From assembly GCA_003245715.1 (NCBI GenBank), contig QKCJ01000031.1, positions 62,001 through 126,000 of the forward strand: a stretch of 64,000 bases of DNA, read 5' to 3'. Both the position numbers and the translations under genes were made by a program. The stretch comes from a bacterium (GTDB lineage: Bacteria > Planctomycetota > SZUA-567). Of the stretch, positions 43,792-46,495 are shown in pieces. The notes beneath the pieces were generated by a model. It was not told the DNA's origin. It was given only the letters and a program-made list of their open reading frames with translations, and ran no database searches. Numbering within the stretch: position 1 is the stretch's first letter; every line of letters starts with the position of its first letter.

Positions 43792-44622
43792 TTATTTCTT
43801 ACGACGGCTGATAATCATTGCGTCGGTTGGGTTGCTCTTCTTACGGGTCTTGCCACCACGAGCGTAAACACCTGTACGTGAGCAGAAGTGCTTACCACCT
43901 GCGCGACGACCTTCACCACCACCGAGTGGGTGGTCAACCGGGTTCATGGTGCTACCACGAACGTGTGGACGACGACCCATGTGGCGCTTACGACCGGCTT
44001 TACCAATCTTGACCATGCCATGGTCTGAATTGCCTACAATACCGATAGTAGCACGGCACTTAATATTAACGCGGCGCATTTCGCCAGAAGGCATCAGCAG
44101 GATTGCGTGCGGACCTTCTTTAGCCATCAGAGTAATGCTTATACCGGCTGAACGGGCAAGTTTGCCGCCCTGACCCGGGTTGAGCTCTACATTGTGAACC
44201 TGTAGGCCGAGTGGAATCTTCTCCAGAGGAATGCAGTTACCAACTTCGGGTTCTGCATCAACGCCGTTTTCAACATGCATGCCGACAGCAAGCTTGTTTG
44301 GCGCGAGGATGTAACGCTTGATTCCGTCAGCGTAGTGAAGAAGAGCAATATTAGCAGAACGGTTAGGATCGTACTCAATTGCTGCAACCTTAGCGGTAAT
44401 TCCATCACGGTCATTACGCTTGAAGTCAATCATACGGTAACGCTTCTTGGCACCACCACCACGATGCTGGGCAGTGATAATACCACGGTGGTTACGACCA
44501 TTCTTCTTGACCAGAGTCTTGACCAGTGTTTTTTCCGGTTCTTTATTTGTAATCTCAGCGTAATCAAGCTGTGTCATGTTACGCAGAGAAGGAGTTACCG
44601 GATTAAACCTTTTAATTCCCAT
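43792..44622 (-). CDS. rplB: 50S ribosomal protein L2
   Basis: 276 residues, full length. RNHRGIITAQHRGGGAKKRYRMIDFKR, LAKGDKI-equivalent ILAPNKLAVGMHV, LNPGQGGKLARSAG and the C-terminal GRRPHVRGSTMNPVDHPLGGGEGR (holding the conserved histidine near the peptidyl transferase centre) are all present. It is complete and in the order rplW-rplB-rpsS. Confidence 0.98.
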   Translation of the reverse strand: MGIKRFNPVTPSLRNMTQLDYAEITNKEPEKTLVKTLVKKNGRNHRGIITAQHRGGGAKKRYRMIDFKRNDRDGITAKVAAIEYDPNRSANIALLHYADGIKRYILAPNKLAVGMHVENGVDAEPEVGNCIPLEKIPLGLQVHNVELNPGQGGKLARSAGISITLMAKEGPHAILLMPSGEMRRVNIKCRATIGIVGNSDHGMVKIGKAGRKRHMGRRPHVRGSTMNPVDHPLGGGEGRRAGGKHFCSRTGVYARGGKTRKKSNPTDAMIISRRKK

Positions 44623-44649: not shown

Positions 44650-44931
44650 TTATTTAAGAACTTCAATCGCCTGCCCTTCAGGAAGACGAACCATCGCCTT
44701 CTTGACCGGCGCCGTTGTACCATAGCTGCGGCCATAACGGCGACGCTTACCATGGGTGATACATGTACGGACACTTACCGGAACAACACCCCAGATAACG
44801 CTCAGAGCGTTACGGATATCATCCTTGCTAGCAGCCATATCAACAACAAATGTGTAAGTGTTAAGCTCCTCTGCCTTTTCGTGAGTCTTCTCAGAAACGT
44901 GCGGGCGCTTGATAACGCGATACGGATCCAT
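44650..44931 (-). CDS. rplW: 50S ribosomal protein L23
   Basis: 93 residues. VIKRPHVSEKTHEKAEELNTYTFVVDMAASKDDIRNAL and the VRTCITHGKRRRYGRSYG loop are typical of L23, which is part of the exit-tunnel rim and binds SRP and trigger factor. Its ATG overlaps the rplD stop by one base (TAATG), so it is coupled to L4 translation. Confidence 0.97.
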   Translation of the reverse strand: MDPYRVIKRPHVSEKTHEKAEELNTYTFVVDMAASKDDIRNALSVIWGVVPVSVRTCITHGKRRRYGRSYGTTAPVKKAMVRLPEGQAIEVLK

Positions 44932-45554
44932 TATTTCAACTCCTCCGGTATAGCCGTCAGGGCTTCTTTTGTAATCACAATCTTGCTTGGCTTGAGTACG
45001 CCGTAGGTGTGAAGACCTGAAAGCGGTGAAACATCAGCAGCAGGAATGTTACGAACACTCTTGTAAACGTTCTTGTCTTCAGCCTTGATAACAACCAGGC
45101 ATGACTTTCCAACATTAAGGTTGTTAAGTGCAGCAGCCATTTCCTTGGTCTTTGGCGCATCAAAGCTCAGATCTGAAACAACAACAACCTCACCGTCACG
45201 GAGCTTACCAAGAAGCGCACTTCTAAGAGCAGCACGACGTGCCTTCTTCGGCATATCCTTGCGGTACTCACGTGGCTGAGGCCCCATGGAAACTGCACCA
45301 CCGCGGCTACCGACACGCGCTCCAAAACCCTGACGGGCACGTCCTGTACCCTTCTGGCGGAAAGGCTTGCCCTTACGGCACATTACGTTGCGGCGGGTCT
45401 TGACGCTATGTGTTCCGAGACGCTGATTAGCTTCAAACATCACAACGGCCTGGTGCATCAATTCATAGTTGACAAATTTTCCAAGGCAGCTCTCATCAAA
45501 GTTGATCTTCTCAACTTCCTTGCCGCTTCGGTCATAAACTGGTAACTCAGTCAT
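44931..45554 (-). CDS. rplD: 50S ribosomal protein L4, first gene of the cluster
   Basis: 207 residues. FVNYELMHQAVVMFEANQRLGTHSVKTRR, the extended loop RKGKPFRQKGTGRARQGFGARVGSRGGAV that reaches the exit tunnel, and VGKSCLVVIKAEDKNVYKSVRNI are diagnostic. In E. coli L4 is the autogenous repressor of the S10 operon. Here it is the first gene: no rpsJ or rplC precedes it, and a structured leader with a terminator-like hairpin lies just upstream. AGGAA precedes the ATG. This makes L4 feedback on its own leader a natural hypothesis. Confidence 0.97.
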   Translation of the reverse strand: MTELPVYDRSGKEVEKINFDESCLGKFVNYELMHQAVVMFEANQRLGTHSVKTRRNVMCRKGKPFRQKGTGRARQGFGARVGSRGGAVSMGPQPREYRKDMPKKARRAALRSALLGKLRDGEVVVVSDLSFDAPKTKEMAAALNNLNVGKSCLVVIKAEDKNVYKSVRNIPAADVSPLSGLHTYGVLKPSKIVITKEALTAIPEELK

Positions 45555-45778
45555 CTTACGCTATTCCTATCAACAGGTAATTATTTCGGCAACCCATTCT
45601 GCCGAGTTACAAAACAAAAAAAGCTTTCGCGCAGAACGCGAAAACTCCCGACGTCTTACGGATCTAATTTTCCGCATGACGAACGAGAGCTGACAGTTCA
45701 CAACTTTAAGCACCAGGTTTACCCGGTTCCGCAAATAACAGCGGCATGTGCTTGAAAGCTCCTTAACCAACTTGTGAG
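45555..45778 (-). promoter_or_regulatory. Structured 5' leader of the rplD operon (putative L4-type attenuator)
   Basis: Predicted transcript start is near 45778. From there the minus-strand RNA can fold as nested stems: UCACAA/UUGUGA (45772-45777 with 45698-45703) encloses AAGCAC/GUGCUU (45748-45753 with 45708-45713). The latter encloses two hairpins: CCGC/GCGG with an 8-nt loop (45729-45744) and CCGGG-UAAA-CCUGG (45713-45726). This is a three-way junction. A terminator-like hairpin (45616-45643) and another 6-bp hairpin (45586-45605) follow before the rplD ribosome site. An 81-codon open frame crossing this region looks spurious. Regulation by L4 is inferred from the E. coli S10 leader; no sequence similarity was checked. 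Confidence 0.6.
45616..45643 (-). terminator. Terminator-like hairpin in the rplD leader
   Basis: A 7-bp stem TTTCGCG/CGCGAAA (45625-45643) with a 5-nt loop is followed on the minus strand by GC and seven T. It lies 60-90 bases upstream of the rplD ATG and inside the predicted leader, so it could act as a conditional attenuator rather than end an upstream gene. Confidence 0.7.
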
Positions 45779-45784
45779 CGCTGA

Positions 45785-45812
45785 AGTATATGCAGAAAGG
45801 ACTAAACATCAA
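45785..45812 (-). promoter_or_regulatory. Sigma-70-type promoter of the rplD ribosomal operon
   Basis: On the minus strand TTGATG (45807-45812), a 16-bp spacer and TATACT (45785-45790). Both boxes are close to consensus. The start it predicts coincides with the 5' end of the outer leader stem, and it is the only good promoter I see between the peptide genes and rplD. Confidence 0.65.
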
Positions 45813-45956: not shown

Positions 45957-46126
45957 TTAATCACGATTTTTTTTATCTTTTCCGGTAAAGGCTTGCGTGC
46001 CATCTGGATTATATACAGGATAAATCGTCGCATTCAAGCTTTCATCGGGCTTTTCAGCAATCCCCGCCCCGCCGGAAACTTTTCAATTTCTTCGCTTACA
46101 ATCTTTTTTTTCTTTGCATCAGTCAT
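45957..46126 (-). pseudogene. Frameshifted double-glycine leader peptide gene
   Basis: The ATG at 46126 follows GGAGAG and reads MTDAKKKKIVSEEIEKF, then stops after 30 codons. One extra T in the TTT run at about 46076-46078 would continue as SGGAGIAEKPDESLNATIYP with a VYNPDGTQAF segment and an end KNRD at 45957. The restored peptide (about 56 residues) has the same layout as the intact peptide gene at 46310: a charged leader, a double-glycine site (hydrophobic -7 and -4, GG) and an IYPV motif. It is therefore called a frameshifted homologue; a sequencing error or programmed shift are alternatives. A TATAAT hexamer lies at 46148-46153. Confidence 0.55.
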
Positions 46127-46309: not shown

Positions 46310-46495
46310 TCATAATAGTATACGAACGCGATCTCGATTAGCCTTTTCCGGCTGGATTTGCATTTCATCAAAAGACACTGGATAAATCCGGTTATCTGCG
46401 TAATTTTCTGTATTTTCAGTGTTTTGATAAAATTTTCCGCCTGAAATGTTATCGAGTTCTTCCTTGCCAATGTTTTCTTTTTGATCTATCATCAT
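46310..46495 (-). CDS. Small peptide with double-glycine leader (bacteriocin/RiPP-precursor-like)
   Basis: 61 residues, starting ATG-ATG directly after AAGGGG and followed by a strong terminator. Residues 1-20 form a leader-like stretch ending EELDNISGG, which fits the double-glycine consensus: E at -8, L at -7, I at -4, G-G at -2/-1. The remainder (41 residues) is polar, with Asn/Glu-rich NTENTENYAD, an IYPVSFDEMQIQ motif, and a basic end; it has no cysteine. The IYPV motif recurs in the frameshifted gene downstream. Such leaders are normally cut and exported by C39-peptidase ABC transporters; none is in this window. No modification enzyme is adjacent. The function of the product is unknown. 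Confidence 0.65.
   Translation of the reverse strand: MMIDQKENIGKEELDNISGGKFYQNTENTENYADNRIYPVSFDEMQIQPEKANRDRVRILL

Follow-up and report, generated by a model that had tools for sequence, protein, structure and literature searches.

Does the RNA in front of rplD regulate a ribosomal operon that begins with L4, and which molecule would it sense? The question arises from the window, by which we mean the whole 64,000-nt stretch of planctomycete DNA analysed, where a first-pass annotation made from the letters alone had placed a folded leader and a hairpin resembling an attenuator. We find that the leader is real and is an apparently undescribed ribosomal-protein leader and attenuator. It belongs to the ribosomal-protein leaders with attenuation, and its unusual feature is that L4 comes first.

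The window operon begins with L4

The S10 operon of E. coli begins with S10 and L3. The E. coli-type order S10-L3-L4 is not present in the window's genome, where the operon opens with the following genes:

44931..45554, minus strand: rplD (L4), first gene; TIGR03953 2.7e-58, PF00573 6.4e-55
44650..44931, minus strand: rplW (L23), second gene; PF00276 1.1e-24
43792..44622, minus strand: rplB (L2), third gene; PF03947 and PF00181

Genes for S19, L22, S3, L16 and L29, identified by translation alone, follow L2, and the best named relatives of the L4 protein belong to two Planctomycetota MAG contigs, with 50% and 45% identity. The window lies in contig 41 of a 63-contig assembly, and S10 and L3 of the same genome lie on contig 55, in agreement with the earlier assignment of L4 as the first gene.

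The break before L4 extends beyond this genome. Neither S10 nor L3 was found upstream of rplD at any of the 24 class loci tested, with 1.5 kb searched per locus (810 nt in L014). Only five of 30 loci have S10 or L3 upstream (L022, L023, L026, L028 and L030), all of them from other classes, and S10 precedes L4 in 20/20 further genomes from other classes of the phylum. The break before L4 therefore marks the class, within our sample. In the same 20 genomes, L3 lies between S10 and L4 in 14 and was not found in the fetched stretch in six (L098, L100, L106, L107, L111 and L112), indicating that breaks of more than one type occur in the S10 operon across the phylum. In two genomes of branch f5 (G020 and G024), S10 and L3 are distant from each other and from L4, a three-way split of the operon start.

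A promoter and a structured leader precede rplD

The region upstream of rplD contains the following elements:

45812-45785, minus strand: sigma-70-type promoter TTGATG-16-TATACT, 9/12 consensus matches
near 45778, minus strand: predicted transcription start
45555..45784, minus strand: leader of 230 nt, taken to start directly after the −10 hexamer

The promoter has the sequence and the place assigned to it by the first-pass annotation. The leader (45555-45780) is predicted to fold far more stably than its shuffles (z −4.29; 0/200 equal it), as is the attenuator half, 45612-45700 (z −4.13; 0/200), such that a structured RNA lies between a promoter and a ribosomal-protein gene, as expected of a ribosomal-protein leader. 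A second promoter-like site, TTGAAT-18-TATAAT (46008-46037, minus strand; 10/12 matches), could yield a longer leader.

Two short peptide frames lie nearby on the same strand. The 61-codon frame at 46310-46495, which begins MMIDQKENIGKEELDNISGGKFYQ..., resembles a double-glycine leader peptide. Its only NCBIfam matches fall below threshold (CTB bacteriocin at E 0.066, bacteriocin signal at E 0.18), it has none in Pfam, and it is followed by a terminator-like hairpin at 46265-46240. The shorter frame at 45990-46126 has a similar start (MTDAKKKKIVSEEIEKF...) and seems, by eye, to be frame-shifted near the glycine pair; it is perhaps a decayed copy of the adjacent peptide gene.

Database searches identify no known family at this locus. 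At the curated (gathering) thresholds of Rfam 15 the window gives 0 matches, including to the leader models, and the 19 relative loci give two tRNAs and nothing else. Loose thresholds return nothing credible; the window's match to PyrR, at 19.6 bits against a required 54 (E 2.2), is attributed to chance. No relatives appear in viral contigs. The first-pass annotation knew of no description of this leader in the group, and the titles, abstract openings and passages of the papers searched likewise describe no rplD leader in this group.

A terminator-like hairpin is kept before rplD across the class

The 3′ part of the leader contains a candidate terminator:

45649-45637/45631-45619, minus strand: terminator-like hairpin H2, 13 pairs (several G-U), with U7 at 45622-45616

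H2 and U7 occupy positions 61-95 nt upstream of the rplD start at 45554, matching the 60-90 bases given in the first-pass annotation. Judged by sequence, the predicted hairpin and U-tract would constitute an intrinsic terminator upstream of the first gene, as in the E. coli-type L4/S10 leader.

To place the window in context, we compared 29 genomes of the class. Of these, 28 have an rplD match (G028 has none), and in G015 the contig begins within the gene, which leaves 27 leaders. A TTGA-16-TANNNT promoter lies upstream of rplD in 20/27 leaders vs 2/27 on the reverse strand, a count in which the match of L025 falls inside its leader and is not the promoter used; the promoters of L003, L004, L021 and L064 were set by eye rather than by the scan. 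A strict terminator rule (a hairpin at or below −12 kcal/mol and at least 6 T in 8 within 2 nt of the hairpin end, in the last 200 nt) is passed by 25/27 leaders vs 1/27 reverse complements, while 25 rounds of dinucleotide shuffling of the 27 leaders give a mean of 6.5 and a maximum of 11. Upstream of rpsJ, the same rule is passed by 2/20 stretches from 19 class genomes, an imperfect control in that some rpsJ genes may lie inside longer operons and three stretches are shorter than 200 nt. The strict rule was picked after the result of a looser scan was seen, and was left unchanged for the later rpsJ control. The first-pass reading of the locus is correct in its coordinates and elements, and the arrangement of folded leader and attenuator-like hairpin is class-wide and specific to rplD.

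It is scarcely credible that the hairpin is a product of chance or a relic, such as the terminator of an upstream gene. The window alone is unexceptional: it passes the strict rule at −16.0, as do 4/25 of its own shuffles, so that the weight rests on the class set, and in the looser scan, where most f1 leaders cannot be told from shuffles, its score is reached by 16/30 shuffles. However, the hairpin sits between the promoter and rplD, has counterparts in 25/27 leaders, and shows compensatory changes in the terminator stem of branch f5/f6, where 15/35 predicted pairs of the whole leader, including pairs of that stem, are changed on both sides.

Two different sensor domains covary in relatives

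Upstream of the terminator-like hairpin, relatives of the window carry structured domains that can be aligned within branches. Alignment A3 comprises 9/16 f1 genomes, those that align, and alignment A2 comprises all eight f5 and f6 leaders. The A3 structure has 26 pairs in a closing helix, a second helix with a bulged C and a third helix, whereas the A2 structure is a 5′ element of 17 pairs. Standard pairs occupy 89.7% of cells in A3 (at most 54.0% in slid versions) and 91.9% in A2 (at most 47.8%), with the reservation that both structures were drawn on the sequences on which they were tested, which favours them over slid versions.

Compensatory change is strong in both sets. In A3, 11/26 pairs are changed on both sides (0/500 shuffles as high), with 26 such cells vs 8.8 in shuffles (0/500). 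In A2, 5/17 pairs are so changed, a number reached by 17/500 shuffles, with 10 cells vs 3.8 in shuffles (0/500) and a covariation score of 0.269 vs 0.169 (0/500); further pair types are no more numerous in A2 than in shuffles (346/500). A lack of covarying pairs across rplD leaders would have refuted the first-pass annotation; this outcome did not occur, f1 and f5/f6 both showing compensatory pairs. For the window's own 5′ domain, which does not align, the structure drawn earlier is a proposal.

The two domains appear to be unrelated. Covariance models of f1 (R1) and of f5/f6 (R2) match neither each other's leaders nor the window, and strong matches occur in 9/29 class genomes for R1 and in 8/29 for R2, one per genome and always before rplD. 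As the matched genomes are those from which the models were built, the informative point is that no other strong locus appears. Across 119 genomes of the phylum, R2 gives three strong matches, all within the class. A further match in this set (E 0.0097) has none of the searched ribosomal-protein genes nearby. Weak R2 matches outside rplD leaders are taken as chance: L093, which lies within an open coding frame; L094, judged by Rfam and the model alignment; and L123, which has no gene for L2, L3, L4, L16, S3, S10 or S19 nearby.

Four f1 leaders (L007, L010, L011 and L014) contain an extra hairpin with a T-run (GCGTTTTTTCTTGC), placed downstream of the sensor domain and ahead of the last hairpin. 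Some f1 leaders may thus carry two attenuators in series.

These observations bear on how the leaders arose. We tentatively suggest that, once the break in the S10 operon had made L4 first, the terminator before rplD was kept while the sensor RNA was rebuilt several times in the service of a single L4 feedback. Two or more unrelated covarying domains would have come of this, and the window's lineage may hold a third. If true, the class would offer a natural series of ribosomal-protein sensors swapped on one conserved attenuator.

The window leader contains competing folds

The window leader can be drawn with a sensor domain and two helices upstream of H2:

45685..45755, minus strand: proposed 5′ sensor domain, a predicted three-way junction
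45762-45757 with 45691-45686, minus strand: inferred long-range helix P1, six standard pairs, proposed anti-antiterminator
45690-45684 with 45650-45644, minus strand: predicted hairpin H1, proposed antiterminator

P1 shares bases with H1, and H1 with H2, so that consecutive elements are mutually overlapping. The best predicted fold of the leader (−63.4 kcal/mol) contains H1; enforcing P1 gives −59.9 kcal/mol, and enforcing P1 together with full H2 gives −58.6 kcal/mol. In these fold models, the arrangement of P1, H1 and H2 is the layout of an anti-antiterminator, an antiterminator and a terminator. Formation of H1 would still leave room for a shorter hairpin ahead of the U-tract, and the switch would therefore be partial.

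In the three-way junction, AAGC/GCUU closes CCGC..GCGG and ACCGGG..CCUGGU; it can form, although other folds compete. Its stability (45685-45755) is weakly above chance (z −1.60; 11/200 shuffles as stable), and that of the larger 5′ domain (45670-45780) is not above chance (z 0.03; 102/200 at least as stable). Local alignment of this domain with the 26 other class leaders does not go beyond shuffles (smallest count 19/300, for L003). The window leader is matched by neither R1 nor R2 and is a member of neither, and R1 with filters off gives no meaningful match on the window, L002 or L006. By eye the window domain can be matched to L002 and L006, but local alignment gave nothing and we do not claim the likeness. 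The window's genus is represented by no other species among the relatives searched; given this and the unalignable 5′ domain, the window's sensor structure is a proposal.

These results raise the alternative that, in the window's lineage, the terminator half alone is functional, the hairpin giving a fixed read-through or acting with NusA or Rho alone. Consistent with this alternative, the 5′ domain is no more stable than shuffles and is without a sequence or model match to relatives. We nevertheless consider it unlikely: the window retains the promoter, the leader length and the U7 hairpin, its attenuator half greatly exceeds shuffles in stability, and a diverged sensor would look the same in a set that holds no second species of the genus.

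A leader peptide could also switch the hairpins, by means of ribosomes on a short frame. Such a frame of 13 codons exists (45706-45747, minus strand; MPLLFAEPGKPGA, read from 45747 to 45706), with AAGGAG 11 nt upstream, and it spans the proposed three-way junction. However, such frames occur in 3/27 leaders vs a mean of 2.9 in shuffles, and their peptides are unrelated, which makes leader-peptide attenuation very improbable.

L4 is the likeliest ligand

On balance, we lean to the reading that the leader is a cis-acting transcription attenuator of an L4-first S10-type operon, in which free L4 binds the sensor and favours termination. RNA polymerase would start near 45778, make the folded sensor domain and then reach, shortly upstream of rplD, the putative intrinsic terminator (45649-45616). 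When L4 is in surplus, free L4 would bind the sensor domain and termination would be favoured, such that L4 and the downstream genes would be made only as fast as rRNA takes up L4. In the window, P1 with the full terminator would be the off state and H1 the on state. The gene order, the promoter, the rplD-specific hairpin with its U-tract and the covarying domains of two branches are observed; termination at the hairpin, L4 as the ligand, the direction of the switch and the fold of the window's own sensor are inferences. L002 and L006 differ in that their closing helix and terminator base have a strand in common; there a closed sensor would be on, opposite to the layout of the window.

L4 is a natural candidate because it is the first gene and regulates the S10 operon of E. 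coli, and gene position and this precedent make it, by analogy, the likeliest ligand. A somewhat unlikely alternative is a real attenuator that senses not L4 but a different protein encoded in the operon (L2, L22, L23 or S3, for example) or a complex. No likeness to 23S rRNA singles out L4, and for Alphaproteobacteria Eckert and Weinberg propose an L2 leader upstream of rplB-rpsS-rplV-rpsC (PMC7247131). On the other side, rplD lies directly behind the leader in 27/27 cases, and in E. coli L4 regulates the S10 operon by attenuation and on translation (PMC10931766).

Mimicry of 23S rRNA was considered for the f5 hairpin (GCGG..GAAA..CCGY), which by eye resembles helix H19, the L4 site in domain I; neither models nor local alignment lend it support. 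Specifically, H19 gives no model match, and the H19 window, placed by 23S landmarks that we take to be correct, ranks 38, 40 and 55 of 580 in local alignment with three f5 leaders.

Relation to known ribosomal-protein leaders

RNAs for feedback by ribosomal proteins vary by lineage, and tests of them outside model bacteria are few. With a leader of the present kind, the L4 circuit stands apart from S10 and L3 and becomes testable with one protein and one RNA. Furthermore, the split operon, together with two covarying sensor folds in one class, provides a case for the origin and replacement of sensors.

As far as the available parts of the sources describe them, three known systems bear comparison. 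The E. coli S10 leader is likewise a long structured 5′ leader with an intrinsic terminator, in an operon that contains L4 (PMC10931766); here, in contrast, L4 is first, S10 and L3 are elsewhere, and no Rfam family matches at curated thresholds. Among 20 new candidates, Eckert and Weinberg (2020) list an L4 leader only for Archaeoglobi and describe their assignments as uncertain (PMC7247131). That candidate precedes rplC-rplD-rplW-rplB, and L4 was guessed as its ligand; unlike the present leader, it is archaeal and has rplC first, a distinction that we draw from its description, alongside the lack of an Rfam match here. The L10(L12)4 leader of rplJL in B. subtilis, and the L20 leader, concern other genes and other folds, and no Rfam model matches the window leader; they nevertheless share with it the layout, proposed for the window, of terminator, antiterminator and anti-antiterminator, in which the ribosomal protein favours the terminator (PMC10931766).
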